Of a stretch of DNA of 26,019 bases, positions 4,535 to 26,019 are shown one piece after another; position 1 is the first letter of the stretch; every line of letters starts with the position of its first letter. This DNA comes from an uncultured Clostridia bacterium (GTDB lineage: Bacteria > Bacillota > Clostridia > Oscillospirales > Oscillospiraceae). Where the stretch lies: the NCBI GenBank assembly GCA_946011705.1, contig CAMGCA010000001.1:1-26019 (forward strand), given 5' to 3'. The notes under the pieces were generated by a model. That model saw nothing but the letters and a program-made list of their open reading frames with translations. It was not told the origin of the DNA and made no database searches. A program made the translations under genes and the position numbers.

Positions 4535-5719
4535 TCAGCCGAGCTTCTGCTCCGGGCTGCCCGGCTGGAACTGAAGGATCTTCTGCATTGCGGACTCCGC
4601 GTGGGCGTAGGAGGCGTGAGTGTAGACATTCAGCGTTACCTCAGCATCCGAGTGACCCATCAGGTATTGCAGATCCTTGATGTCCATTCCGGCGTTCGCC
4701 ATATCGGTGCAGAAGGTATGCCGCAGCACATGAGGCGTGATGGTGGGCAGCGGATCGTTGGGATGGAGCTTGCGGTACTTTTTCATAGCCCACTGCATAT
4801 GGTGCTCAATGTGCATCGCCACGCAGGGCTTCCCGTTCTTGTCCAGCAGCAGAAACCCGGAGTGCCCATCCACAAGATATTCCACGCTGGGATTCCTTCG
4901 ATTGGCAAGGATATTCTTCAACGCTGCGTAAACATTGTCCGTCATGGGGATGAAGCGGCAGCCGCTCTCCGTTTTGGTCTTCTCCACATAGAGCGTCCCG
5001 TCTGCCTTACGGACAAGCTGATGATCGACCCAGATTTTCCGTTTTTCAAAGTCCAGCTGATCCCTGGTGAGCCCACACAGCTCGCTCACCCGCATGCCGG
5101 TTTCCAGCAGGACGGTGAACTCATCGTAGTATCTGGAGAAATGTCTATCCTCTTGAATGAAACCCATGAAGATGTCCTTCTGCTCCTGTGTCAGAGCAAT
5201 CCGTTTCTTGGAGTCGTTCTTCACAACATCGGACAGCTTGAAATCAAAGGGGTTCCTGCGGAGAATTTCCTCCTCATAGGCCATCTGGAAGGCGGGCTTC
5301 ACAACGCCTCTAACGCTGGTGATGGTGCTGTAGCCCCTTCCGTCTCTCTGGAGCTTCATAAACCACAGCTTTGCATCCGAGGGTCTGATGTCACGGATAC
5401 ATCTTTGTCCGAAGGCCTCCTTTTTGACGAGGTTCAAAACAAAGCTGTAGCCCACCGTGGTGGCATAGCGGACACCCTGCTTGAGACTGATGTAGCGCTC
5501 CAGAAGCTCCACTACGGTGATTCCGCCATCGTGATAGCTTGCACCGTCAATTTCGGTTCGATTGATTTCTTCCTCTTTCTTCCGCAGCCCTTCCAGCGTT
5601 GGCGCGTAAACCGTATGCCGTTTGCCGCAGGAGTCGGTATAGCGGTACTGGTAAATCAAATCCTTTCTCTGGCTTTCTCCGGTTTTGAGGATGCGGCCTC
5701 TGGTATCTTTCCTTTTCAT
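4535..5719 (-). CDS. int: Tyrosine recombinase/integrase (Tn916 type)
   Basis: 394 residues. An N-terminal arm-binding domain occupies about 1-60, a core-binding SAM-like domain about 65-165, and the catalytic domain about 175-380. The catalytic set looks complete: R210 (TGMRVSELCGL), K249 (TKTES), H330-x2-R333 (HVLRHTF), H356 (GHSD) and nucleophile Y366 (NVYTH). It would catalyse integration and excision of the surrounding element. The ATG at 5719 follows AAGGAG at 7 nt spacing. It lies downstream of xis on the same strand, with a 12-bp perfect hairpin in the 87-nt gap. The gene appears intact, so the element may still be mobile. Confidence 0.95.
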   Translation of the reverse strand: MKRKDTRGRILKTGESQRKDLIYQYRYTDSCGKRHTVYAPTLEGLRKKEEEINRTEIDGASYHDGGITVVELLERYISLKQGVRYATTVGYSFVLNLVKKEAFGQRCIRDIRPSDAKLWFMKLQRDGRGYSTITSVRGVVKPAFQMAYEEEILRRNPFDFKLSDVVKNDSKKRIALTQEQKDIFMGFIQEDRHFSRYYDEFTVLLETGMRVSELCGLTRDQLDFEKRKIWVDHQLVRKADGTLYVEKTKTESGCRFIPMTDNVYAALKNILANRRNPSVEYLVDGHSGFLLLDKNGKPCVAMHIEHHMQWAMKKYRKLHPNDPLPTITPHVLRHTFCTDMANAGMDIKDLQYLMGHSDAEVTLNVYTHASYAHAESAMQKILQFQPGSPEQKLG

Positions 5720-5745
5720 GGATGTACTCCTTCCTGGTGAAAGGA

Positions 5746-5782
5746 GCCTCGGTGTGACATGACTATCATATCACACCGAGGC
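5746..5782. promoter_or_regulatory. Perfect 12-bp hairpin between xis and int
   Basis: GCCTCGGTGTGA (5746-5757) pairs perfectly with TCACACCGAGGC (5771-5782) over a 13-nt loop. It sits upstream of the integrase start codon (5719) and downstream of the excisionase stop (5807). There is no T-tract on the minus strand, so it is not a simple terminator for xis. It may be an attenuator, an mRNA processing or stability element, or a palindromic protein-binding site. Confidence 0.55.
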
Positions 5783-5806
5783 GGTTTTGGCTACGGATGA
5801 AATGTA

Positions 5807-6001
5807 CTAAATTGAATAGGAACGCTCAATAAATTGGTCAAAAAGCCGCTTTTTGATTAGCCGCTTGGTGCCGACCCACAGCACAAAATTACAGCCTTCC
5901 TCGTTGGTGATTTCCCGCAGCTTCCCAGTACCAATGCCAGAGTACGCCGCGGCCTCCTCCAGTGTCAGGTTGGCCTTCTCCCAGATGGGAACCTCTTTCA
6001 T
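5807..6001 (-). CDS. xis: Excisionase (Tn916 Xis-like)
   Basis: 64 residues, typical for Xis. The sequence ANLTLEEAAAYSGIGTGKLR reads as a winged-helix/MerR-like recognition helix, and LWVGTKRLIKKRLFDQFI as the wing and C-terminal helix, as in Tn916-type excisionases. Xis bends DNA at the element ends and steers integrase towards excision. The ATG at 6001 is behind AGGAGG at 6 nt spacing. It is located between the helicase and int genes on the same strand, so co-expression is likely. Confidence 0.88.
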   Translation of the reverse strand: MKEVPIWEKANLTLEEAAAYSGIGTGKLREITNEEGCNFVLWVGTKRLIKKRLFDQFIERSYSI

Positions 6002-6065
6002 AAGAATCCTCCTTGCAACGGCACAGCAACAAAAAACTTGCTGTCAAACAATTTTGATGGTATAG

Positions 6066-7658
6066 TCAAATAAGCATCAGCCCGCAGTAACCGTTGCGGG
6101 GAACGCCGTCTACCCGTTTCTTCTTATTCTCGTAGCCCGGACAGAGGGCCTTAAAACGCATCGAGAACGCCTGTTTGTTCACGATACTCTCATGGCCGAT
6201 TCCCCGGCAGAAGGCCTGATAACTTTCATACAGCTCGTCTGTCGTGACAAAGCCATCGGCCTTTTCTACACAGTGCGTACTGATAAACTTCTTCAGATCC
6301 TCCTCCATGTCAGCGGTCTGCTCGCCAGTCTGGTGCGCCCTTGCGATGTCGAAGACGTCGTCACCGCTGAACACAAATCCCGTGGATAACAGCCGCTTAT
6401 ACGCCTCCAGGGCCTTCCAGAAGATTCCCGGGCGCTCCTGCCTCAGCAGGTTCCGAAGGTTGGGGTTCTGCAGATGATGCGGAACGGGGTGTTCAAAAGG
6501 CAGATACAGCACGCGCTTCCAGAATGCCATATCATAGGAGTTGGTGCGAAGCCTGTGGTTCGTACCGAAGATCAGCTTACAGCCAATTCTTGCTGCGTAG
6601 GGGGTCTTGTACTTTTCCTCCACCTGCACCAGATCCCGTCCGGTGATCTGCTTGATGATGGACATGGGCTGCTCATGCAGAGCCGCATCCGTGAGGTCCA
6701 TGGAGATATTGAGCCGCTTATAAACAAGCGTCGACAGAGAGAAGCGATCCCCCAGGCGGAAGATGTCTACGCTCCCGACAGCCTCCGGCATAAAGAACGA
6801 AGCTGCCAGATCGCCCCATACACTCTTGCCGGTGTCGCCCAAACCCATAAGGAGAATAAAGCGTTTAGCACGATCGTCAGGGATGATGGCGTAGGCCAGG
6901 GCCTCCCAATTCCTCTGAATCAGCACGGGATTCCCGCCTGCTGCATACTCGAAGAAGAAGTCACAGGTAGGGCACGGCTGCTGTCCCATGTAGTTCACAT
7001 CCATCATCCACGTGAGAAAGTACTGAGGACTGTGCGCATACAGCTTGAAGTCATGGAGGTTCAATACACCATTCTGCAGACAGATCATGTCAGCAGCAAA
7101 GTCATCCGCCTTCACTTCGATGAAAGGTTCTGCCATAATTGCTGCCGCCACACTGCGGATCTGCTTGGAACTGCCGTTAATGCTCAGTTCTTCACGTAGC
7201 GTGTCGTAGATCAAAGTATGAAATTTATCAGTCGTAAGACGTTCATAGTAACGTCCGTTGAATTGATAGATTTGCTCCCCTTGTCTGCGCAGGGTCACGC
7301 GGTTCAGCAGGATCTGCGCCAGTTCCATATCCGAAGGAGCCCCTCGATGGTAACGCACAATGTTCCCCGGGACCACTTGTGGCTGATGGGGAGCTGATTG
7401 CCTCAGGGGCACTAGAATGGGTGGAAGCTGCAGTTCGTTCTGCATCTGATATCGTCGCTGCAGATCTATTCTCTTCCCGATGATTTCCCGTTCAGCCTCC
7501 GTGTCGAAGGTCATAAGCGGTGCGATCAGACCCGCAGGGCAATTCTCCTGGGCTCTGGCAGCAGCAGCGATCTCCACATCCTCCGCCATCTGAATGATTT
7601 TCGCATCCTCGCCGCTGACTCCGATAATCTGGCGTTCATCGTTGTTCAAATTGTTCAT
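6066..7658 (-). CDS. D5/P4-family phage-plasmid primase C-terminal SF3 helicase
   Basis: 530 residues from the ATG at 7658, chosen because AGGAGG lies 8 nt upstream. A longer in-frame start at 7736 has no good site. A D5_N-like region at about 100-250 precedes an SF3 helicase core: Walker A GLGDTGKS (272-279), Walker B LNISMDLTD (~316-324) and sensor KLIFGTNH (361-368). A C-terminal winged-helix-like segment follows. Such proteins load onto an origin and unwind it for element replication. No clear archaeo-eukaryotic primase domain is visible in the first ~100 residues, so it may be helicase-only and rely on host primase. It belongs to the int-xis element and is divergent from the HTH regulator. 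Confidence 0.88.
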   Translation of the reverse strand: MNNLNNDERQIIGVSGEDAKIIQMAEDVEIAAAARAQENCPAGLIAPLMTFDTEAEREIIGKRIDLQRRYQMQNELQLPPILVPLRQSAPHQPQVVPGNIVRYHRGAPSDMELAQILLNRVTLRRQGEQIYQFNGRYYERLTTDKFHTLIYDTLREELSINGSSKQIRSVAAAIMAEPFIEVKADDFAADMICLQNGVLNLHDFKLYAHSPQYFLTWMMDVNYMGQQPCPTCDFFFEYAAGGNPVLIQRNWEALAYAIIPDDRAKRFILLMGLGDTGKSVWGDLAASFFMPEAVGSVDIFRLGDRFSLSTLVYKRLNISMDLTDAALHEQPMSIIKQITGRDLVQVEEKYKTPYAARIGCKLIFGTNHRLRTNSYDMAFWKRVLYLPFEHPVPHHLQNPNLRNLLRQERPGIFWKALEAYKRLLSTGFVFSGDDVFDIARAHQTGEQTADMEEDLKKFISTHCVEKADGFVTTDELYESYQAFCRGIGHESIVNKQAFSMRFKALCPGYENKKKRVDGVPRNGYCGLMLI

Positions 7659-7957
7659 AATATGTACCTCCTGATTCATGTTTTCAAATAGGATAGCCAT
7701 ATTAAAGCACAAAGATCTGCGTTCTGCAATTCGCATAATCTACAGTTGTGACATACACATCGCAAGTCGCATAGATAAAAATGTACATATTTAATATATC
7801 CGTCAATATATGCTCTTTATATATTGTGCATTTTGAGTGCTTCAAATCTAATTGAACCATATACTATGCGCAATAAAGCGTAGATGATAGTTAATTGTTG
7901 AAAATGCCGAATCCCCAAAGTCGCAAAAAGTAAAAAGATAAAAATAAGGAGGGTATT
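7659..7957. promoter_or_regulatory. AT-rich divergent control region with repeated motifs (possible operator/origin)
   Basis: About 300 nt between the helicase gene (-) and the regulator gene (+). On the minus strand a fair promoter is TTGCAG, 17 nt, TTTAAT, with the -10 near 7700. The 12-mer GCAATTCGCATA (7726-7737) recurs as GCAAGTCGCATA (7762-7773), 11 of 12 identical, exactly 36 nt apart. Shorter relatives are TATGCG at 7865 and AAGTCGCA near 7920. The stretch near 7780-7840 is very AT-rich with several ATATAT tracts. This fits operator sites for the neighbouring HTH protein and/or an origin for the SF3 helicase; neither is proven. Confidence 0.45.
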
Positions 7958-14862: not shown

Positions 14863-17800
14863 TTATGCCACATCTTTGTACCGCATATAGATATACTGAT
14901 ATATTTCCTGACGATAAGCGGAAACGCTCAGTTCATCATAGCTCTCAGGAAGCTCTGCCCACAGGGTGTCACGAATCAGATTATCAATAATCGCTTTGGT
15001 CTCCGTCTTATCTGTCCAGTGATCCAATTCAGAAATCTTTGCTTTCACTTTTGCCAGCAGATCCACCGCCACCTTCTTGATCATTTCGATTTCTTTCTTG
15101 TTCAGATCCTCCTTAAACAGCAGATCAAATACAGAAAGCTCCTCGTCACTGGAAAAACCTTCGCGGACATATCGCTTTTCTTCCTGAGAAAGATCCTGGG
15201 CAAGCTTTGTCAGCTCATCAAAAATGCGTTCAATCTCCGAGCGGTCTTTCTCAGCATTGTACTGCTCAATAATGCTCTGATAACGTTCATAATAATCAAT
15301 GCGGGCAGGGTTGCTTCGGAGCATCTGTTTGAGCCGTTCCTCCACAAGCTCTGACAGGTCTTTGATAATCAGTCCCTTATTCGAGGCTTTCGCAAATTCC
15401 CGATGCAGCAAATCAAAGTCAATCTTGGAAATGTCAAAACGCTTCGATTCCATCAGCCCTTCCGATGTTGGCTCCAGGGCAAGGCTTTCACTGACAATCC
15501 TGTTAATCTCAACCATCAGATCCGTGTTGTCCGCATGCTTCCGCTTTGCCTGCAGTTCCTTGTAAATTGCCACAATGGCGTCCCTGTAGGAAAGCTGCTG
15601 CTCTGTCAAATCATCACGCTGTAAATATTTCATGACCCGGACAAGCTCAGAGGCGTAGGTTTGAAATTCCTTTTTCTCCTCCATGGAGCCGCAGACGGCA
15701 TCCGCGCCTGCTCGGATGAGCGCCTGTTTCGCGAAGTCTTTCGCCTCGACCAGGGCGGCCAGGGAGAATCCTTTTTCCCGCAGAAAAGCATCTGTCTGTC
15801 CGATCAGTTCCACGACTCTGGCTACCAGCACCGCTTTGTCAATGGTCGGATCTGCGCCGCCCTGCCCGGAAGAATTGGCCGTGTAGTCGGCAAGGGCCTT
15901 CCGCAGCGCCTTAACGATACCGATGTAATCGACGATCAGGCCGTTGCTCTTGCCTTCGGAAACGCGGTTGGCCCGGGCAATGGTCTGCATCAGCGTGTGG
16001 GCTTTCAGGGGCTTGTCCAAATACAGGCAGGACAGGCTTTTCACATCGAAACCGGTGAGCCACATGGCGCACACGAACACGACCCGGAAGGGGTTCTCCG
16101 CGTCTTTGAACTCCTTGTCCAGTTCCCGCTTCTCCATCTTCGCCCGGTGGGTCAGAATGTCCAGGCCCCACTTTTTGAACGTCTGAATCTCGTTCTGCTC
16201 CTGGCTGATGACCACGGCCATTTCCGTTTCTTTCAACCAATGCAGCTTCCGTTCCAGCTCCTGAAAGGACTGTTGGGACGTTGTCTTTTTCAGAGCCGCT
16301 TCCGTTTCCACGATTTTTTCCGCCCAGTATTTCTGTGCCAGATTGTACATCCGTACACAGGTCACCTTGTTCAGGCAGACAAACATGGCTTTTCCGGAAG
16401 TCCACACGTTGGTGTAGTGCTCCACGAAATCTCTGGCAATCGCGTCCAGTCGGGGCGCGGCTGTCAGAATATGGATTTCCTTTGCAAATTCCCGTTCCAG
16501 CTTTTCCTGTTGGCTGACATCCAGATCCGCCGCTTCGATGGCATCCATGATCTCCTGCGTGATTTCCGGATTCTTGATGGTGCCAAGCTTTTCACCGCGG
16601 TTTTCATAGTACAGCGGAACCGTGGCGCCGTCCTCTACGGCGCGCTTAAAGTCATAGATGGAGATATAGCCGCCGAAAGTGCGTTCCGTGATGGAATCAT
16701 TGGAGAACAGGGGCGTGCCGGTGAAACCAATTCTGGAAGCGGTAGGCAGCAAGGCCATCATATTTTCCGCGAAAATACCATTCTGGCTGCGGTGGGCTTC
16801 GTCGGACATGATGATAATGTCATAGTTCGGCGTAATCGGCGGCAAGCCCTTCTGATTGAATTTCTGAATCAGCGTGAAGATGAAGCTGGGATTGCTTTTC
16901 AGCTTATGGATGAGATCCTCACCGCTCTGGGCTATGTACTTGGATGCTTTCACGTTGCCCAGCATTCCGCAGTTTTCAAAGGTATCGCTGATCTGTGTAT
17001 TCAGTTCCTCCCGGTCGGTGAGCACCACAAAAGTGGGAGAGCCGTCAAATTTCCGCCGAATCTTCTGAGCCAGGAACAGCATGGAATAGCTCTTGCCGCT
17101 TCCCTGGGTGTGCCAGAACACGCCCAGCTTGCCGTCTCTGAGCTTGCGCTGCTTGTAGACCTCCACCGCCTCATTGACGCCGAGATACTGGTGGTTCCGG
17201 GCCAGAATTTTGGCAGTGTGCCCGCCGGAGTGGTCAAACAGAATGAAATTCTCAAACAAATCCATGAGATTGCGCTTGTTGCAGATGCCCCGCAGCATGG
17301 TTTCCAGGGCAACAGAACCTTCTTCGTCCTCTTTCAGGCGCTTCCACTCATGGAAAAAGGCGTACTTGCTGCCCAGAGTACCGACCTTGGCTTCCTCCCC
17401 GTTGGACAGGATCAGGAAAGCGTTGTAATAAAACAGGTGGGGGATGGTGTCCAGATAGTCGGTGTAATTGCAGATGTAGGCATCCTGCACATCCACATTG
17501 AAATTCTTCAGCTCCACGAACAGCAGGGGGATGCCATTGACAAAGCCCACGATATCCGTCCGGCGGCGGTACAGTTCGCCGTGGATTTTCAGTTCCTTGA
17601 TGGCCAGAAAGTGGTTGTTCAGCGGGTCATCAAAGTCAAATACCCGAACACGCCGGATTTCCGGCTTTCCGTCCAGCTTCTTGACCGAAATCGGGATGCC
17701 GTCCCGAAGATAGCCGTACTTCTCCTCATTGATCTGCATCAGGGAGGACGAGGTCAGGTGATACTCCAGCTTCTTCGCCGCGTCCTGATAGAGTGCTTCC

Positions 17801-18003
17801 GTCAGCCAGGGATTCAGCTTCATCACAGCCTGCCGGAAGTAACGCCAGAGCACGATTTCCCGATAGTTTTTCCGTCCAAAGGTGCCGTTTTCGCCCAGCT
17901 TCTCCGTATTGTAAGCGTAGGCAACCTCCCAGCCCAGCTCGTCACGGAGCAGATTTCCTGCACTGTCCTGGACTAATACATTTTCGGAATAGTCGTAGCT
18001 CAT
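14863..18003 (-). CDS. hsdR: Type I restriction enzyme, R (motor/nuclease) subunit
   Basis: 1046 residues, normal for HsdR. The N-terminal PD-(D/E)xK nuclease is visible as D150 and E164-L-K166 (RRTDIVGFVNGIPLLFVELK). The SF2 translocase follows with Walker A GSGKS (301-305), DEAH (401-404), TGTP (428-431) and the later motif IARANRVSEGK, then a long helical C-terminus that docks on the methylase. All catalytic residues appear intact. In complex with HsdM2HsdS it translocates DNA and cuts far from an unmethylated site. The ATG at 18003 is 4 nt after the upstream unknown gene. It is the last gene of the operon whose hsdM is interrupted, so assembly of an active complex is doubtful in the present state. 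Confidence 0.97.
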   Translation of the reverse strand: MSYDYSENVLVQDSAGNLLRDELGWEVAYAYNTEKLGENGTFGRKNYREIVLWRYFRQAVMKLNPWLTEALYQDAAKKLEYHLTSSSLMQINEEKYGYLRDGIPISVKKLDGKPEIRRVRVFDFDDPLNNHFLAIKELKIHGELYRRRTDIVGFVNGIPLLFVELKNFNVDVQDAYICNYTDYLDTIPHLFYYNAFLILSNGEEAKVGTLGSKYAFFHEWKRLKEDEEGSVALETMLRGICNKRNLMDLFENFILFDHSGGHTAKILARNHQYLGVNEAVEVYKQRKLRDGKLGVFWHTQGSGKSYSMLFLAQKIRRKFDGSPTFVVLTDREELNTQISDTFENCGMLGNVKASKYIAQSGEDLIHKLKSNPSFIFTLIQKFNQKGLPPITPNYDIIIMSDEAHRSQNGIFAENMMALLPTASRIGFTGTPLFSNDSITERTFGGYISIYDFKRAVEDGATVPLYYENRGEKLGTIKNPEITQEIMDAIEAADLDVSQQEKLEREFAKEIHILTAAPRLDAIARDFVEHYTNVWTSGKAMFVCLNKVTCVRMYNLAQKYWAEKIVETEAALKKTTSQQSFQELERKLHWLKETEMAVVISQEQNEIQTFKKWGLDILTHRAKMEKRELDKEFKDAENPFRVVFVCAMWLTGFDVKSLSCLYLDKPLKAHTLMQTIARANRVSEGKSNGLIVDYIGIVKALRKALADYTANSSGQGGADPTIDKAVLVARVVELIGQTDAFLREKGFSLAALVEAKDFAKQALIRAGADAVCGSMEEKKEFQTYASELVRVMKYLQRDDLTEQQLSYRDAIVAIYKELQAKRKHADNTDLMVEINRIVSESLALEPTSEGLMESKRFDISKIDFDLLHREFAKASNKGLIIKDLSELVEERLKQMLRSNPARIDYYERYQSIIEQYNAEKDRSEIERIFDELTKLAQDLSQEEKRYVREGFSSDEELSVFDLLFKEDLNKKEIEMIKKVAVDLLAKVKAKISELDHWTDKTETKAIIDNLIRDTLWAELPESYDELSVSAYRQEIYQYIYMRYKDVA

Positions 18004-18007
18004 AAAA

Positions 18008-18673
18008 TCACCATTTCTTATTTCCTGATAACTTCATTAACTCTTCGTATGATTGTTGATTCATCCAAAACGGATATTGTCCACTTAGTATGTCGGCTTC
18101 TGACAGTCGGATGTTTGCTTTATGGCCTGTCAGCACATCCCAAATCCACCATGTTGCAAACATATCAGGAAAAATCACAAAAACATTGCTAAATTTCTTA
18201 CTATCTATGCACTGCGATTTAATCCACTCAAAAAAGTCCTGTCGGTCACCATCTAATAGGCAATGCGTTACAGATCCATATTCATCCAGAACCCAATCAG
18301 TCAGATCGATCAAACAGAGAATGCAAAGGTGTACGTTGCGTACGGAATATGTTTTCTTCAGTTTCTGCTGTATGGATTCTTGAATGTACTGAAAGGCATC
18401 TTGCGCTACATCGTCCGTTGTATATTGTCCGCTATAGAATTTTTGAATATAGTTTCCTTTGTTCTTTCGATCCGAAGCCATTGTAAACTCAAAGGGGATA
18501 CCATCGCAGAAATAATCTGGCTGAAACTTATTTGCGTTACCTGGAATCCAATTTCTGTGCCCCAGTGCCAATTCCATCATTTTTTGAATAAACGGCTCAT
18601 TTACAGATTTATGCTTAAAATCTGGGGGCAAATAAACGTTTACGATTTGGCTTGGCGGTTCCAACATATCCAT
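18008..18673 (-). CDS. Uncharacterised protein embedded in the type I restriction operon
   Basis: 221 residues, not recognised. It starts 3 nt after hsdS and ends 4 nt before hsdR, so it is a true operon member; GAGG lies 8 nt before the ATG at 18673. Visible: P52-D53 (QPDYFCDGIPFEFTM) with E62-F63-T64 nine residues on, flanked by a helix containing NEPFIQKMMELA and later hydrophobic strands VHLCILCLID and FSNVFVIFP. This order (helix, PD, ExT, strand) is reminiscent of the PD-(D/E)xK fold, but the usual Lys of ExK is Thr, so nuclease activity is not supported. It is soluble with no membrane segment. It may be a regulator, inhibitor or accessory defence protein of this Hsd system. Confidence 0.7.
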   Translation of the reverse strand: MDMLEPPSQIVNVYLPPDFKHKSVNEPFIQKMMELALGHRNWIPGNANKFQPDYFCDGIPFEFTMASDRKNKGNYIQKFYSGQYTTDDVAQDAFQYIQESIQQKLKKTYSVRNVHLCILCLIDLTDWVLDEYGSVTHCLLDGDRQDFFEWIKSQCIDSKKFSNVFVIFPDMFATWWIWDVLTGHKANIRLSEADILSGQYPFWMNQQSYEELMKLSGNKKW

Positions 18674-18676
18674 AAT

Positions 18677-19933
18677 CTATGCCTCGATTTCTCCACTCAT
18701 CAGCTTGGGGAGCAGACGGTCGCGGGCTTCTGTCAGCAACGCGAACTGGCCTTGGATAATACTAATTTTTGCCATTATTGCTTCGATAGGTTTCAACATG
18801 CATGCGTTATCCGGAATTAACAACTCATGGTTAAGAAAGCCATCAAAATCAAAATTGTTGATTCCATTAGCCCCGTGTTTTTTTAGCGGGAGCATTCTTC
18901 CGCTTGTTTGCATATCTTGAATTTCCCAATACAGTATCAAGGAATGCAGCCTGTTAACCGGGCGGAGCAACTTACAGAAGCTGGCGCAGATTGTATTCTC
19001 GCCACAGTTTTTCAAAACCAAATCATCAATGAGCAAGCAACGACCGATGTTGTTAATGTTGCCATTTGACAGCTCAAAAACAAGATCATGGATTTTTAGC
19101 GTTCTCTTTTTGATATCGTTATCTGTGTGGTATCGCAGAGGGATATCATTAAATCGACCTGCTTTTACATCTTCGATATCTGTTCCTCGTATTACTTTTC
19201 CGGGATGCTCATTTTTGCCCATCGATGTTTCTTTGCCCCAGCCACCATTTCCGTGGAAAGAAAGGCATTCTTCTACTGTTTTGCGACTCCACCCCTCCGG
19301 GATACCATTCACGATAGGGGTGGTTTCGTGACCGGGGAAGCGCAGGTCTACGAACCATTCCTTATACAGTCGCTGCGCCGCTTCTTCCAGCAGTTTGATT
19401 TGTTTCTGGTTGTTTTCAATCAAGGTATCATAGGCAGAAAGAATGTTAGCAATTTGATATTGTCTTTCAAGTGCAGGGATATCTAATTCTATTTTGCTTA
19501 GATTTTTTATGGGTAGTTGGGGTTGAGCACTGCCCGTACAGTATTGCTGGAAATATGGCCTATAGTAACTGCTTTTGAGAATCTGATAAAGGAATTCGGT
19601 ACACACAACGCTTTCGTTTGGACGAATAATGACCATACCAGAGTTGATTCGTATATGCTCATAAGGGACACTTTCGCTAAAGAATCCAGCATTTCCAACC
19701 GTTCCCCGTGTGGTGTACACAATATCTCTTCTACGGAGTTTTCCTTTTCTCAGCAAATCACTCTTTTCCTTTGTTATGAATTGATTGCTTTCAAAAGAAA
19801 AGCCTGATGTTGTCACGTTTCCAGTATTTAAAAACAGGCAATATCCCTCCGCCATAAACTCAGACTGCTGTGGATAGTTTTTCCCTCTATCACCATCTAT
19901 AATTTCTGCCAGTTCTCCTATGGTATATCTCAT
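18677..19933 (-). CDS. hsdS: Type I restriction-modification specificity (S) subunit
   Basis: 418 residues, normal for HsdS. Two target-recognition domains, at about 1-150 and 205-365, are each followed by a conserved helical spacer: LERQYQIANILSAYDTLIEN near 154-173, and a matching C-terminal helix ending in LLTEARDRLLPKLMSGEIE. The pair sets the bipartite DNA recognition site. Its ATG overlaps the hsdM stop by 4 nt (ATGA, 19930-19933), with GGAG just upstream, so it depends on hsdM translation. It is lower in GC than hsdR, as is common for fast-evolving specificity genes. Confidence 0.94.
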   Translation of the reverse strand: MRYTIGELAEIIDGDRGKNYPQQSEFMAEGYCLFLNTGNVTTSGFSFESNQFITKEKSDLLRKGKLRRRDIVYTTRGTVGNAGFFSESVPYEHIRINSGMVIIRPNESVVCTEFLYQILKSSYYRPYFQQYCTGSAQPQLPIKNLSKIELDIPALERQYQIANILSAYDTLIENNQKQIKLLEEAAQRLYKEWFVDLRFPGHETTPIVNGIPEGWSRKTVEECLSFHGNGGWGKETSMGKNEHPGKVIRGTDIEDVKAGRFNDIPLRYHTDNDIKKRTLKIHDLVFELSNGNINNIGRCLLIDDLVLKNCGENTICASFCKLLRPVNRLHSLILYWEIQDMQTSGRMLPLKKHGANGINNFDFDGFLNHELLIPDNACMLKPIEAIMAKISIIQGQFALLTEARDRLLPKLMSGEIEA

Positions 19934-20937
19934 AGCCCCATCTCCTTCAAATTTTTGGAAATGGTCTGCATCAATTCATTGGATTCTGCCTGCAACGTCA
20001 GCAGCTCCCGATGAATTTCCGCCATGCGCTGGGCAAAGTCCACGCCGTCATCTTCCACAGCGGCCACACCTACATAGGCTCCCGGTGTCAGAGAATAATT
20101 CCTCTCCTTGATCTCCTCACGGGTTGCCACCTTGCACAGGCCGGGGATGTCCCGATACTCGCCCTCGCCGAACTTCTCATAGAGCCAGCAAGCCTCTTTT
20201 AAAATGACAATCATCGCTTCTGCTGCGGCGATTCGCTCATTCCATTCAGCGTCAACTGTCTTCTTTTCTCGCTTCGCTGCCGTATCAACTGCCTGCTTTG
20301 CTTTCTTGCGAATCAGCTCCAATTTTGCTTGCAGCAGATCCAGATTCTCAGAAAAACTGCGCTGGATTCCGTAACCGTCCGGAACATCCTCGATATGCTT
20401 AGAGGTGTTAACAAACTCCGCAACTTGATCTATATACTCATTGATCAGGTCAGCATACTTTTCTCTTTCGCCCCGGTAGAGCCAGACAATGGCGTTCAAA
20501 TTCTTGAGCTGCCACTCGCTCCACTCGTTGAGGGTACGGTCAACCACGGTATAGTAATTCCGGGCATCGATGAACAGCACCTTGTCCAGCAATTCCTCCC
20601 CCTTGCCTTTGTCGAAGAACCACAGGGAGCAGGGCAGGCTCTTGGTATAGAAAAAGTTGTTGCCAACGCTCATCATCACATCCACATGGCCGGTCTGCAC
20701 CAGCTTCTCCCGGATGTCCCGGTCTTTGCCGGAGCTGTCTGTAGCAGAGGACGCCATAACGAAACCCGCCCGGCCTTTCTCGTTCAGGTAGGCGTAGAAA
20801 TAGGAGATCCAAAGATAGTTGGCATTGCCGAACTCCTTGGCAGAATTAATGGAAGGTGTGCCGAAGGGCAGTCTGCCGGCACTCATGGCGGCCTCGGATT
20901 TGACCTTGTCCACGTTAAACGGCGGATTTGCTGATGT
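19930..20937 (-). pseudogene. hsdM: Type I DNA methyltransferase (M subunit), C-terminal part, interrupted by mobile element
   Basis: About 335 codons remain, starting at the catalytic motif IV ANPPFN (near 20931-20914) and running to a normal C-terminus (SKNLKEMGL). Full HsdM is about 500-700 residues; the N-terminal domain and SAM-binding motif I are missing. Upstream of ANPPF the open frame continues to 21000 with residues unlike HsdM (for example NSPYFFSLC), encoded by the T-tract and hairpin of the recombinase operon, so the junction lies at about 20931-20945. Starts at TTG 21000 or ATG 20886 would give a product with no SAM site. Downstream motifs (GKDRDIREKL, GVAAVEDDG) read normally. 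No frameshift is seen, so precise excision could restore the gene. Confidence 0.88.
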
Positions 20938-20949
20938 TAAGCAAAGACT

Positions 20950-20974
20950 AAAAAAATATGGGCTGTTCAAGCCC
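20950..20974 (-). terminator. Intrinsic terminator of the recombinase operon at the element edge
   Basis: On the minus strand GGGCT (20974-20970) pairs with AGCCC (20964-20960), followed by AT and a run of seven Ts ending at 20950. It is placed right at the junction with hsdM, so it would block read-through from the element into hsdS-hsdR. Confidence 0.75.
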
Positions 20975-20980
20975 ACATGC

Positions 20981-21018
20981 GAAGGAGCGGTACCCGGCAA
21001 TCCAGGGCCCGCTCCTTC
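20981..21018 (-). terminator. Second hairpin directly after the last recombinase stop codon
   Basis: GAAGGAGCGG (20981-20990) pairs with CCGCTCCTTC (21009-21018), a perfect 10-bp stem with further CCC/GGG pairing inside. It begins 3 nt after the recombinase stop (21021-21023). It lacks its own T-tract but backs up the terminator at 20950-20974. Confidence 0.55.
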
Positions 21019-21020
21019 TG

Positions 21021-22628
21021 TTATTCTGCTGTATTCTCCTGCCCAATCAACCGGGCAATCTCATCAGAGAATCGATAGATGATCTCCACCCTCATGCCGC
21101 TGTACACATTCACACGGTCGATAAAGAACAGGAGCATTTCATTGGTCAGCTCGTCCGCAGTCAGCGTCCGGCGGGCCATATCGCAGGTCTCCGTTAATTC
21201 GTGGTTTCTGCTCTGAGAAAGGGCTAAAAGCTCCTTTTCCAGCCGCTCTTTCTCGGAGCTGAGGCTGTCGTTCTCCGCGTTCAGTTTATCGCGTTCCATG
21301 AGGTATATATCCCTCTGAAGTCGTCCTTCGGCATACCGCTCGTAAGCACTGACCCGGCTGACGGAAATCTGCTTCATGCGTTTCTCAATCTGTTCCAGCC
21401 GAAATCTGAGGTTTTCCTCTGTGCCTTCGCTGGCCGCTGCCGCCGCATACAGGCGATCATCTGCATCCACCAGCAGACGGAGCTTCTCAATCAGGTCGTT
21501 CTTCACGATGCGCTCCAGGTCGGCCTCAATGAACCGTTCGCCCACCGGGCAGGCGGTTTCTCTGTTGGATACAGACTTGAGGCAGGTGTAGTAAATCACC
21601 GGGGAGTGTTTCTGCCGCTGCATGGTGCGTCCGCAGGCCCCGCAGTGAACCAGACTGCGCAGCAGATACTGATCAGGACTCCGCTCATACCCCTTGCGGA
21701 TTTTACGGAACACTTTCTGTGCTTCTTCATACTCGCTTTCGCTGACAATGGCTTCATGGCAGTCCGGGATGATCTGCCACTCGGATTCATCCGTCCATAC
21801 CGTCCGAGGATTGTCCAGCCCCTTCCAGCGGCGCTGATTCATGACCATCACGCCGGTATACTCCCGGCGCTTCAGAATCTCCCGCACATTGCTGACCGTC
21901 CAGCAGGCTTCCTTAGAAGCAGTGCGGAACTTTTTGCTGTCGGGATTCATCCGCATATAATAGGCCGATGGCGTTTCCAGCTTATAATCGTTCAGGACAA
22001 CGGCAATCTCTGCCGCCGTTTTTCCTTCCAGCGCAAGGTCAAAGATTTTCCGCACCACAGGCGCGGTATCCGGATTGGGAATGATCTTCCGTTTCACATC
22101 CGGGTCTTTCATGTATCCGTATGGAGCCTGCGAAGCTACGAACTCGCCCTTGCTCTTTCTGGTACTCATGACGGTTTTGATCTTCTGGGACAGGTCGCGG
22201 CTGTAATAGGAGTAGACGATGTACTTCATGACCACTTCCATGCCGGCCGTGGAGCCCTTGTAATCATCGCTGTCATACCCGTCGTTGACGGCAATGAAGC
22301 GAACGCCCAGGAACGGAAAAATACGCTCCAGATAGTCGCCGATCTCCACATAGTCGCGGAAAAAGCGGCTGAAATCCTTACAGATGACCACGTTTGCCTC
22401 GCCGTTTTTCAGGCTTTCAATCATCCGCTCAAAGGACGGACGGTTGCCGTTGGTGCCGGAGTAGCCGTCATCGATGAACTCGACCACTTCATAGCCGTCA
22501 AACTCCCGGCGGGCGCGGATGAACCGATACAGCAGCGTGCGCTGATTGGCGATGCTCTCGCTCTCGGTCTTGAATTTCAGGTCATCGTCGGCATCCGACA
22601 GGCGGATGTACAGGTACAGTTTCTTCAC
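21021..22628 (-). CDS. Large serine recombinase 1 (element-end proximal)
   Basis: 535 residues. The resolvase-type catalytic domain has nucleophile S11 (YIRLSDADDD) and the arginine-containing stretch CKDFSRFFRDYVEIGDYLE at 83-101. A recombinase domain follows at about 165-270, a zinc ribbon (C329, C332, C349, C360) and a long coiled coil at about 390-480. All are standard for the large serine recombinase family. The start is GTG at 22628, overlapping the previous gene's TGA by 4 nt, with GGAGGTG about 7 nt upstream. It is the last gene of the three-gene operon, next to the hsdM junction. Confidence 0.93.
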   Translation of the reverse strand: MKKLYLYIRLSDADDDLKFKTESESIANQRTLLYRFIRARREFDGYEVVEFIDDGYSGTNGNRPSFERMIESLKNGEANVVICKDFSRFFRDYVEIGDYLERIFPFLGVRFIAVNDGYDSDDYKGSTAGMEVVMKYIVYSYYSRDLSQKIKTVMSTRKSKGEFVASQAPYGYMKDPDVKRKIIPNPDTAPVVRKIFDLALEGKTAAEIAVVLNDYKLETPSAYYMRMNPDSKKFRTASKEACWTVSNVREILKRREYTGVMVMNQRRWKGLDNPRTVWTDESEWQIIPDCHEAIVSESEYEEAQKVFRKIRKGYERSPDQYLLRSLVHCGACGRTMQRQKHSPVIYYTCLKSVSNRETACPVGERFIEADLERIVKNDLIEKLRLLVDADDRLYAAAAASEGTEENLRFRLEQIEKRMKQISVSRVSAYERYAEGRLQRDIYLMERDKLNAENDSLSSEKERLEKELLALSQSRNHELTETCDMARRTLTADELTNEMLLFFIDRVNVYSGMRVEIIYRFSDEIARLIGQENTAE

Positions 22629-24346
22629 CGGGCTTCACCTCCTTCCAATTCGTGATAAGCCGCTTCCAGTGCGTCCCGTTCCTCCTGAAAGCAGAATATG
22701 ATCTCCAGCCTGTGCTGGGCATAACCTGTTTTATATACGTTGATGTGGTCAATCATCGCCTGGGCGATTTCCGGCGTCAGCTTCCGCGCCTTGCGGATAT
22801 TCCGGATGTTCACAAGCCACTTGTTCTCATCGGAAAGCATCCGGTTCAGCCTGGCCAGTTCTACCGACAGCTGATTGAGGCGGGAACTCTGCTCCTGATA
22901 TGCGGTGTCAAAACGGGTTTTCAGCTCCATATAGTCCCCGGCAGAGAGAATGCCGTCCACATAGTCATTGTAGAGCTGCTCCCGTTTGTTCTGATAACCG
23001 GACAGCTGATTACCGACTTCCAGCATTTCCTGCTGAAGTTCGGTCTGCCGTTTCGTCTGAATACCGCTGTCCTTCAGCCGCCCGGCTACTTCCTCAAAAT
23101 CCGCGAACAGGGCAAACTGTGTCTGGATTGCGTTCCAGACAATCGGCGCGAGCTTTTTCTCCGAGATGCCGACGGCAACATCGCAGCGGCCATACTGCTT
23201 GTTCCGGCAGTTGTACCGGCCTTCTTTTTTCTCGCCGTGGCGGCTGTAACCGAGGTTGGAGCCGCAGTGCCCGCACCGGACGATTCCGGTTCTGAAGATC
23301 TGCGGATGCTTTTCGCGGTAATTCCGGCTGGCTTCCAATTTGGCCTCATTCTCACGGCGGCCTGCCTCCAGAATTTCTCTGACCTGATAGAAGTCGCCCC
23401 GGCTGACCAGTGCCTCATGCATATCCGGCAGGATACGCCACTTGCTCTCATCCGGCTCATAGTGATAATCCGGCTGTCCCAGATACAGCGCCGTCGGCAT
23501 CCGTCCAAAGACAAGGTCGCCCATATAGGTCGGATTCATCAATATCTGTTTGATGACCTGCTGTGTCCAGAGGCAGTCGGAATAACATGCCCGCCTGGTC
23601 TGTCCGCGCAGATAGCGGAGCTTTCCTGGCGAGGGAATACCTTCTTCATTCAGCTGACGCATGATGGGGCGCGCTCCGGTGCCGCTGAGAAACTGTGCGT
23701 AGATTCTCTTGACAATCGGTGCGGTCTCCGGATCGGGTTCAAACCGGTACTCCTGTGTGGTCGATTTCCGGTATCCGTAGGGGATCATGCTGGGAATGTG
23801 TTCGCCGGCCAGCTGTTTGGCATGAACCGCCAGCGACACCTTCTTGGACTGGTCTCTGGAATAGAAGCTGTTAATCAGGTTCTTCAGTGGAATCAGCAGG
23901 CTGCTGGCTGAGCCGTCCGTTTCAAAGCTGTCATAGCGGTCAACCACCGAAATGAACCGCACACCCATGGCCGGGAAGATGTTCTCCAGCAGGTTGCCTG
24001 CCTCAATATAATCACGGGAGAAGCGGCTGAAATCCTTGATGACCAGCGCCTTGATTTTTCCCTCCCGAATATCGGAAAGCAGTCTCTGAAACTCCGGGCG
24101 GTCCGTGTTGGTTCCGGTCCAGCCGTTATCCACATAGGTATCCGCCAGATGAAGATACGGGTGCTCCGCTACATAGTCCCGGCAGATCTCAATCTGACCT
24201 TCGATGGAATCGCCATCATCATTCTTTTTGCTGTTTTCAACCGAGAGTCGGGCGTAGATGGCCGTCTCCCAGACGGACGGCAGCATGGCGCTGACCGGTT
24301 CCTGCGTCTGCTCCTGCTGTAAATACTGCCTTTTCTTTCTTGCCAT
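22625..24346 (-). CDS. Large serine recombinase 2
   Basis: 573 residues. The catalytic Ser is S35 (IYARLSVENSK) after a ~25-residue extension; KDFSRFSRDYIEAGNLLE is at 104-121. The recombinase domain lies at about 185-285, the zinc ribbon at C358, C361, C380 and C388, and the coiled coil at about 395-490. The ATG at 24346 shares one base with the TAA of recombinase 3 and has GAGGAGG 8 nt upstream, so it is translationally coupled. The three recombinases are clearly paralogous but well diverged. They may act jointly, as CcrA/CcrB do, or with divided roles in integration and excision; which is unknown. Confidence 0.93.
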   Translation of the reverse strand: MARKKRQYLQQEQTQEPVSAMLPSVWETAIYARLSVENSKKNDDGDSIEGQIEICRDYVAEHPYLHLADTYVDNGWTGTNTDRPEFQRLLSDIREGKIKALVIKDFSRFSRDYIEAGNLLENIFPAMGVRFISVVDRYDSFETDGSASSLLIPLKNLINSFYSRDQSKKVSLAVHAKQLAGEHIPSMIPYGYRKSTTQEYRFEPDPETAPIVKRIYAQFLSGTGARPIMRQLNEEGIPSPGKLRYLRGQTRRACYSDCLWTQQVIKQILMNPTYMGDLVFGRMPTALYLGQPDYHYEPDESKWRILPDMHEALVSRGDFYQVREILEAGRRENEAKLEASRNYREKHPQIFRTGIVRCGHCGSNLGYSRHGEKKEGRYNCRNKQYGRCDVAVGISEKKLAPIVWNAIQTQFALFADFEEVAGRLKDSGIQTKRQTELQQEMLEVGNQLSGYQNKREQLYNDYVDGILSAGDYMELKTRFDTAYQEQSSRLNQLSVELARLNRMLSDENKWLVNIRNIRKARKLTPEIAQAMIDHINVYKTGYAQHRLEIIFCFQEERDALEAAYHELEGGEAR

Positions 24347-26007
24347 TATGCGTTCCTCCTCTCCGGCATTGTTACGCCTTCCTCAGCTGGAAGGACATCC
24401 TCAAACCGTTCTATATACTGCAGTGCGTTTTCCAGTTCATCTTTGTAGCGGAAGCACACTTCGATGCGCTTGCCGTCATAGATCAGGATTTTCTCAATCA
24501 GGTGAACGATGCACTCCCTGTCCAGCTCCGTCAGGTGCCGGTACTTCTTGAACTGTTCAATCCACTCGATGTTCCCGGAGCTGATCTCCATGGCCTGACT
24601 GCGTTCATCCTTCAGCTTTCCCAGCTGCCGCTGCCTGTCCGCAATCCTGCGGTCATAGCCCGCATGGAATTCTCTGTACTCCTCACGGCTGATTACACCA
24701 TCCGCCATATCCGAATACAGGTTGATTTTCAAATCCTGATACCGCTTGATTTCATTTTCCAGCGCCGTCATCTGGGCGTCATAATTGATGATTCGCCGCT
24801 CCTGTTCCGGCAGCGATGCAATGTAATCCAGCACCTGTTCCACCTGGGCGATCAGCTCAATATGGTCATTTACCACCCGGAGCACAATTGCTTTCAGCTT
24901 GTCCTCGCTGAATGTATGCGGAGAACAGCCCTTGCCCGCTTTGTTGGTGGAACAGACCAGGTAATGATACTTTTTCCCGCCGCTGGGGACGGTCTTCCGC
25001 ACCATGGTATGTTTGCAGTCGCCGCAGAACACGAAGCCGGAAAACAGATGAACTTTTTCCTGCTTCGGCGCTGTGCGGACGTCCCGCAGCATCAGATTCT
25101 GAACGGTATCAAAATCCGAGCGGCAGATAATGGGCTCATGGTTGTTCTCGATGACAATCCACTCATCCCGGTCATACTCCACACGCTTTTTGATTTTGTG
25201 GTTCGGAGTGCCGGATTTATGCTGAATCAGCGTTCCGATATAGATTTCATTGGACAGGATTCGCTTCACCAGCATGGGGCTCCACTCTGCCTGTTCGTTG
25301 CTGCGGAATCCGCAGGAGTAATTGAAGCCCTGCGCCTGCTTGTATTCCATGGGGCTCAGGACGCCCATTCTGTTGAGCCGGTCGGCAATGGCGGAATTGC
25401 ACAGTCCCTGTATGCGGAGCCGGAAGATCAGCTCCACCGTGCGGGCGGCCTCCTCATCCACCACCAGCCTGTTTCTGTTTGCCTCGTCCTTCCGGTAGCC
25501 ATAGGGTGCAAAGGCTCCGATGAAGTCGCCCATCTTGCGCTTGATGTCCAGCTGAGAGCGAATCTTAACGGATATGTCGCGGCAATAGGCGTCGTTGATC
25601 AGATTCTTGAACGGCACGATCAGCGCATCGGACTGCGCCTTTTCGCCGCAGGAATCATAGTTGTCATTGATGGCAATGAACCGCACGCCCATGAACGGAA
25701 AAATCTTTTCCAGATACCGTCCTGCATCGATGTAATTTCTGGCAAACCGGCTGAGGTCTTTGCAGATCACACAGTCGATTTTCTTGGCCTTGATATCCTC
25801 CATCATCTGCCTGAAGCCCGGACGTTCAAAGTTGACGCCGGAATAGCCGTCATCCGCATACTCCTTAACGATCACAAATTCCGGATGCCTGCGCACATAG
25901 TCCCGGATGATCTCCTTCTGACTCGTTATGGAATTGCTCTCCGCCTTGTCGCCGTCATCGCGGGAAAGACGGGTATATTCTGCTGCGTTCCAGATTCTGT
26001 CTGGCAT
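24346..26007 (-). CDS. Large serine recombinase 3 (first gene of the operon)
   Basis: 553 residues from the ATG at 26007. A GTG at 26016 is possible but overlaps the apparent GAGGTG ribosome binding site, so the ATG is preferred. Catalytic S15 (EYTRLSRDDGD) and CKDLSRFARNYIDAGRYLEK (82-101) are present. A recombinase domain, a zinc ribbon near 320-365 (FVFCGDCKHTM ... LVCSTNKAGKGC) and a coiled coil follow. This is a normal full-length large serine recombinase. It begins 12 nt from the window edge, so the operon promoter and any genes before it are not visible. Confidence 0.92.
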   Translation of the reverse strand: MPDRIWNAAEYTRLSRDDGDKAESNSITSQKEIIRDYVRRHPEFVIVKEYADDGYSGVNFERPGFRQMMEDIKAKKIDCVICKDLSRFARNYIDAGRYLEKIFPFMGVRFIAINDNYDSCGEKAQSDALIVPFKNLINDAYCRDISVKIRSQLDIKRKMGDFIGAFAPYGYRKDEANRNRLVVDEEAARTVELIFRLRIQGLCNSAIADRLNRMGVLSPMEYKQAQGFNYSCGFRSNEQAEWSPMLVKRILSNEIYIGTLIQHKSGTPNHKIKKRVEYDRDEWIVIENNHEPIICRSDFDTVQNLMLRDVRTAPKQEKVHLFSGFVFCGDCKHTMVRKTVPSGGKKYHYLVCSTNKAGKGCSPHTFSEDKLKAIVLRVVNDHIELIAQVEQVLDYIASLPEQERRIINYDAQMTALENEIKRYQDLKINLYSDMADGVISREEYREFHAGYDRRIADRQRQLGKLKDERSQAMEISSGNIEWIEQFKKYRHLTELDRECIVHLIEKILIYDGKRIEVCFRYKDELENALQYIERFEDVLPAEEGVTMPERRNA

Positions 26008-26019
26008 TTTAATCACCTC

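Follow-up and report, generated by a model that had tools for sequence, protein, structure and literature searches.

A probable ICE right end in hsdM of a Clostridia type I restriction-modification operon, with a serine-recombinase triplet at the code for methylase motif IV

Described triplet-integrase elements and the present locus

ICEs that carry a triplet of serine integrases and lie in hsdM are known from Streptococcus (PMC4701971; PMC7563491); for these and the other papers cited, our statements cover the accessible portions of the text. For the Tn1806-like ICEs of Streptococcus agalactiae (ICESag167 and others), entry into hsdM, snf2 and an Eco57I-type methylase gene was shown by conjugation, the snf2 target being called a methyltransferase with an SNF2 domain (PMC12942858). 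Like the element described here, these ICEs have three serine integrases, a split target gene and methylase targets that include hsdM (YeeA-type), but their repeats are TGGG-GGGA or TGGG-GGGT whereas ours is AAT, and the accessible part of the paper gives the targets as a list of genes, with no protein motif (PMC12942858). Judged from their published sequences, these repeats would match the codons for Pro-Pro in the motif discussed below, read on the other strand. The ConjTn1549-family ICEs of streptococci resemble our element in having the triplet in one orientation to its target, in disrupting hsdM and in their repeats of 2-8 bp, and in our reading the RepA_N-type and Tn1549-like genes of a relative of our element in genome G201 are of the same general kind; they differ in host group and in having one target family per lineage (hsdM, mutT or traG), and the accessible text gives no motif rule (PMC4701971). 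An ICE in hsdM of Streptococcus salivarius, which belongs to the Tn1549 family, likewise has the triplet in one orientation, but it is a single example for which the accessible portion of the paper gives neither a motif nor a target range (PMC7563491).

Since triplet ICEs in hsdM have already been described, the single insertion reported here belongs to a known kind; what is new is the 20-residue tail acquired by in-frame targets and the occurrence of tail-bearing chimeras across methylase types. In the literature searched, with subscription papers mostly outside the search, we found no report of the NPPF/NPPY methylase motif as an attachment site and, within the same limit, no motif rule spanning many methylase families. 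NPPF/Y is motif IV of adenine methylases. The window (the whole stretch of DNA analysed, 26,019 nucleotides from an uncultured Clostridia bacterium of the Oscillospiraceae) very probably represents the right end of an ICE in hsdM of a type I restriction-modification operon, placed by triplet integration at the code for this motif.

The divided hsdM and the point of exchange

A minus-strand frame of the window reads ...SLCLTS, then ANPPFNVDKVKSEAAM..., and is HsdM from there on. The hsdM piece comprises 333 codons including that for Ala, matches the N6_Mtase profile from position 131 in a profile search, and is 58-71% identical to four intact relatives (L010-L013). The initial annotation had described a switch of frame from HsdM to element residues at ANPPF and a mobile element inserted just before the NPPF codons of hsdM; the switch is real, on the minus strand and at the Asn codon, and the insertion stands, while its position has to be corrected, the break lying inside the codon for N.

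The missing 5' part, which the same annotation had suggested looking for and whose absence it would have counted against the insertion, is present on contig C88 of the source assembly (2.26 Mb, 372 contigs, 73% complete; the window is its contig C1), where a profile search of the genome's contigs found an hsdM piece of 294 codons matching N6_Mtase positions 3-132. This piece ends ...CDYVMAN, gives way to element DNA at the same Asn codon, AAT, and continues for 20 foreign residues to a stop, beyond which C88 runs on to a RepA_N replication gene, forming the left end of the element. When joined, the C88 and C1 halves give a 625-residue HsdM (78% identity to L010 and approximately 70-71% to L011-L013), and the suggested comparison with intact relatives bore this out, the joined halves aligning end to end with the four uninterrupted hsdM genes, in which the AN codons are directly continuous with PPFN.

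We infer that C88 and C1, which are separate contigs in the assembly, flank one element. The genome is incomplete and in many contigs, both contigs end inside the element and several VirB4-like genes are present, all of which would suit two different insertions or an assembly artefact; such an origin is nevertheless hardly credible, as the assembly has a single copy of the right-end pattern, on C1 (exact search), and a single copy of the left-end pattern, on C88 (up to 3 mismatches allowed), the halves meet at the same codon, both have L010 as their best intact match, and the same junction is present in an independent genome (G200). Another hsdM of the source genome (L007, contig C52, 5702-6640, minus strand) stops before NPP (...EFDYII; N6_Mtase positions 5-129) and continues, as judged by eye, to a tyrosine recombinase-like fragment, reflecting either a different event or an assembly join.

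The short direct repeat that had been expected at the far junction is the 3-bp AAT, common to the left end on C88 and the right end in the window. With the pairing of the contigs inferred as above, the insertion thus splits hsdM with a 3-bp direct repeat, inside the 2-8 bp of triplet modules. At the left ends of three genomes (our own, G200 and G201) the third base of the Ala codon is G, A and C, respectively, and is the host's, while at all four right ends read it is A; because this base varies on the left and is constant on the right, the exchange is placed within AAT, the 2-bp core being likely AA or AT. The right arm of the attachment site (Table 1) resembles a partly inverted copy of the left arm, with 15 of 29 positions matching, a score that 48 of 5000 shuffles also reached. 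A terminator-like site is predicted at 20956-20978, and the fold of 20936-21026 has a z-score of -6.35.

Table 1. Features of the hsdRMS operon, the attachment site and the recombinase triplet in the window
Feature	Position	Strand	Domains or basis
hsdR, restriction subunit, same operon as hsdS and hsdM	14863..18003	-	HSDR_N, SWI2_SNF2, ResIII
hsdS, specificity subunit, 3' of the broken hsdM	18677..19933	-	Methylase_S
hsdM 3' part, Ala-Asn codons to stop	19930..20931	-	N6_Mtase positions 131-310
AAT, Asn codon of ANPPF and crossover region; 3-bp repeat with C88 left end (L006 6463-6465)	20926..20928	-	left/right end comparison
Right arm of attachment site (TTAGTC-N6-TAACA)	20929..20958	-	conserved at right ends of related elements
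Two hairpins and T run, terminator-like, between outermost recombinase and attachment site	20956..21018	-	
recE, outermost serine recombinase, 535 aa	21021..22628	-	Resolvase, Recombinase, Zn_ribbon_recom
recM, middle serine recombinase, 573 aa	22625..24346	-	Resolvase, Recombinase, Zn_ribbon_recom
recI, innermost serine recombinase, 556 aa; contig ends here	24346..26016	-	Resolvase, Recombinase, Zn_ribbon_recom

The three recombinases, each with the domains of large serine integrases, are adjacent and on the same strand as hsdM, and their positional order is kept in related loci. In best-match comparisons that covered sequences other than streptococcal ones, each recombinase matched its positional counterpart in close relatives (e.g. 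L039, L040, L043, L046 and L047), whereas in the more distant L051, L104 and L105 the best matches were not true to position. Elsewhere in the window are a 221-residue frame between hsdS and hsdR (18008-18673, minus strand) and a second mobile-element module (4535-7736), in which a Tn916-type tyrosine integrase is accompanied by a small frame resembling an excisionase and by a D5-type primase.

In the mechanism we propose, the three-recombinase module would have joined the attP of the element to an attB in the chromosome formed by the codons of methylase motif IV (two hydrophobic residues, a small residue and Asn, followed by Pro-Pro-Phe/Tyr), the exchange falling within AAT. A 20-residue element tail and a stop now follow the 5' part of hsdM, and the 3' part lies beyond the recombinases and the terminator-like structure. 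Loss of HsdM would presumably end both methylation and restriction by the HsdRMS complex. HsdR requires HsdM and HsdS, so with HsdM lost the remaining HsdR and HsdS should be inert, as established for type I enzymes.

Both half-frames are open and the element ends are intact, which fits the suggestion in the initial annotation of a recent or reversible insertion, and the element would presumably be able to excise; neither an excised circle nor an empty site was observed. A reversible switch, in which excision restores hsdM in some cells or the two parts still cooperate, could draw on these open frames, on a TTG approximately 20 bases beyond the recombinase stop as a possible start for the 3' half, and on the suggestion that elements of this sort may leave at times when the gene is of use (Ambroset 2016, accessible portion). 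We regard such a switch as unlikely: the insertion puts motifs I and IV into different proteins, the 3' half is preceded by a terminator-like structure, and a family profile search of the (incomplete) source assembly found no full-length N6_Mtase match.

Relatives of the element and the range of targets

Nine loci resulted from a comparison of the outermost recombinase with species genomes, and four (L039, L040, L041 and L047) reach 91% identity or more; the L047 contig ends within the recombinase gene, and the right end could be read in the other three. All three right ends lie at NPP of N6_Mtase genes, and these genes are divergent, in agreement with the earlier proposal of a site-specific element at the NPPF codons. 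The L039 target is an hsdM that shares 67% identity with that of the window over the 3' half; the L041 target reads ANPPFGTKKGG and the L040 target NPPYSAKW. Two of these elements look decayed from their sequences: in L041 the match to the 535-residue recombinase breaks off at residue 462 and the hsdM frame has just 112 residues, and in L040 the left hsdM part is divided between two frames. The stretch from the recombinase stop to the element end is also absent from L040, resulting in a frame (G201 contig C99, 39-2318) in which the outermost recombinase is fused to the 3' part of HsdM, giving 759-761 residues; this fusion may be decay or an assembly artefact.

The relative in G201 has both ends on contig C99 (approximately 714 to 75097, 74.4 kb) in hsdM, and its recombinases are 91-96% identical to ours. 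Eight of its 63 predicted frames were scanned, and among these were a relaxase, a VirB4-like ATPase, TrbL, NlpC/P60, ParB and RepA_N, along with an SNF2 protein of 2801 residues and a C5 DNA methylase, so that the gene content looks like that of a conjugative element. The element in the window has RepA_N at its left end and would, by analogy, be conjugative as well; VirB4-like genes occur several times in the source genome, with at most 63% identity to the G201 VirB4 over the full length, and could not be assigned to the element in the window. Sampled whole genomes contained no close relative: with its own genome set aside, the best match to the outermost recombinase was 54% identical among 200 family genomes, 54% among 394 genomes from the order and 36% among 398 from the phylum. 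The two exact element-end patterns gave no match in viral contigs.

The left end of the element gives in-frame targets a 20-residue tail, which was used as a search handle. A search with the last 40 residues of the chimera returned 597 matches, and of the best 120 listed, 57 carried the tail; two tail-only searches with fillers of different length (best 120 of 273 matches, and 56 of 56, listed) added 150 proteins, all with the tail, giving at least 207 chimeric protein clusters, which are not to be equated with independent insertion events. According to their Pfam domains, 196 of the 207 clusters listed have a methyltransferase domain, in keeping with the initial proposal that a conserved stretch serves as the target in many hosts. 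Four of the remaining 11 are other genes (an amidase, Dak1, a PAS protein and a subtilase) and seven had no domain listed; on rescanning these seven, four matched MmeI_Mtase and Eco57I below the cut-off and P0258 a general methyltransferase, also below the cut-off, while P0183 and P0212 gave no domain match.

By domain, the targets comprise HsdM, MmeI-type, Eco57I-type and EcoRI-methylase-type enzymes (PF13651 we take to be the EcoRI methylase, and PF20464/PF20465 parts of MmeI). NCBIfam models applied to 10 chosen chimeras placed P0207 and P0230 above the BREX-1 PglX cut-off, and others matched type I, type II and type IIG models. Against a BrxX/PglX of solved structure, the break in P0230 falls before PPYMGG, in an alignment that is locally weak; P0237 matched no solved structure, and P0154 (Eco57I type) had no homologue in 147 genomes at E 1e-30.

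The residue before the tail is Asn in 206 of the 207 clusters listed and Asp in one, in 162 different 18-residue contexts; upstream of the break the sequence is mostly Asp, hydrophobic residues, then Ala, Thr, Gly or Ser, and then Asn. A homologous frame reaching the junction was available for 175 of the clusters listed, leaving 32 chimeras without a homologue for this check; for 165 of the 175, NPP stands at the break in the best homologue. The 10 exceptions consist of two that read NVP (for P0258 at 57% identity and for P0041 at only 27%), two with VMNPPY out of register, one that is itself a chimera with another tail, and five that are apparently misaligned or weak. The NVP of P0258 comes from the large SNF2 protein of the related element (L092), where a stretch with 57% identity reads NVPFGQ; a break in an SNF2-like stretch recalls reports that Tn1806 enters snf2 in other ICEs.

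As the survey covers in-frame fusions, in which AAT is an in-frame codon, the Asn is partly forced by the detection, while the methylase identity and the following PP are not. Insertion of low specificity, of which only the in-frame Asn fusions are visible, would profit from this and from the part of the matches listed (the best 120 of 597 and the best 120 of 273). We consider it very unlikely, given that any gene has in-frame Asn codons and yet methyltransferase domains and NPP predominate as described among the clusters listed, and that all four right ends, which are the frame-blind DNA evidence (two of them in the decayed-looking L040 and L041), lie at NPP in N6_Mtase genes. The landing site thus seems, from these comparisons, to be a short stretch common to these DNA methylases, and one integrase module could land in many adenine DNA methylases because they share motif IV.

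Five HsdM fragments among the best 120 matches listed (P0023, P0024, P0030, P0033 and P0035) break at the same Asn with other tails (AREVFGLT or ASDIFGLT), which suggests further elements using the same site. A role of the 20-residue tail, which ends in Ala-Ala, as a degradation tag was considered; the tail varies among the chimeras.

The outer recombinases of more distant loci (approximately 35-57% identical) have other coding stretches as their sites among the loci listed. L050 lies at ANPPF of an MmeI-type methylase, L042 and, with a weak match, L051 in serine recombinase genes, L105 at DEAH of an HsdR-type SWI2/SNF2 domain, L104 at DECH of a ResIII-type gene and L097 in SpoVT; L043 and L046 are, by eye, in repeat-protein genes, presumably with leucine-rich repeats. 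For L051, L053, L054, L095, L096, L104, L105 and L097 the sites are seemingly at SRLGRN of the recombinase, at DEAH/DECH or at the start of AbrB/SpoVT. Landing on conserved motifs may therefore be broader than methylases. The L045 target (DPPYYDN) was considered as another methylase; it had no Pfam match and was left out of the methylase count.

A general address and host defence

Two readings of the target choice, both compatible with the anatomy of the insertion, compete with each other. In the first, which we put forward tentatively, the integrase of this ICE lineage would have evolved to use motif IV as a general address, and landing would in itself counter host defence and make the host accessible to more transfer. 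If so, insertion would disable whichever restriction or BREX system is entered, and no nuclease would stay active once its methylase is gone, as these nucleases depend on the methylase protein; the element could bring modification genes of its own, such as the C5 methylase gene of the G201 relative. In the second, to which we give moderate credence, the motif is a good address merely by being conserved, widespread and dispensable, and loss of restriction is a side effect that brings the element no benefit. The conserved stretches unrelated to defence that distant relatives of the outermost recombinase occupy (SpoVT and serine recombinase genes) argue for the second reading, as do rumA and mutT, named as other dispensable targets (Ambroset 2016, accessible portion); the predominance of DNA methylases in this lineage (196 of the 207 targets listed) argues against it, as does the distant relative in an HsdR-type ATPase domain (L105).

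The landing rule proposed here is the code of one catalytic motif common to unrelated methylases, not a list of genes, and as such it predicts insertion sites in new hosts. The 20-residue tail provides a signature by which insertions can be found in protein databases, and the findings point to large serine integrases with a target that is present in many bacteria. They also open to test the question of whether mobile elements select sites at which insertion shuts down restriction and BREX defences.
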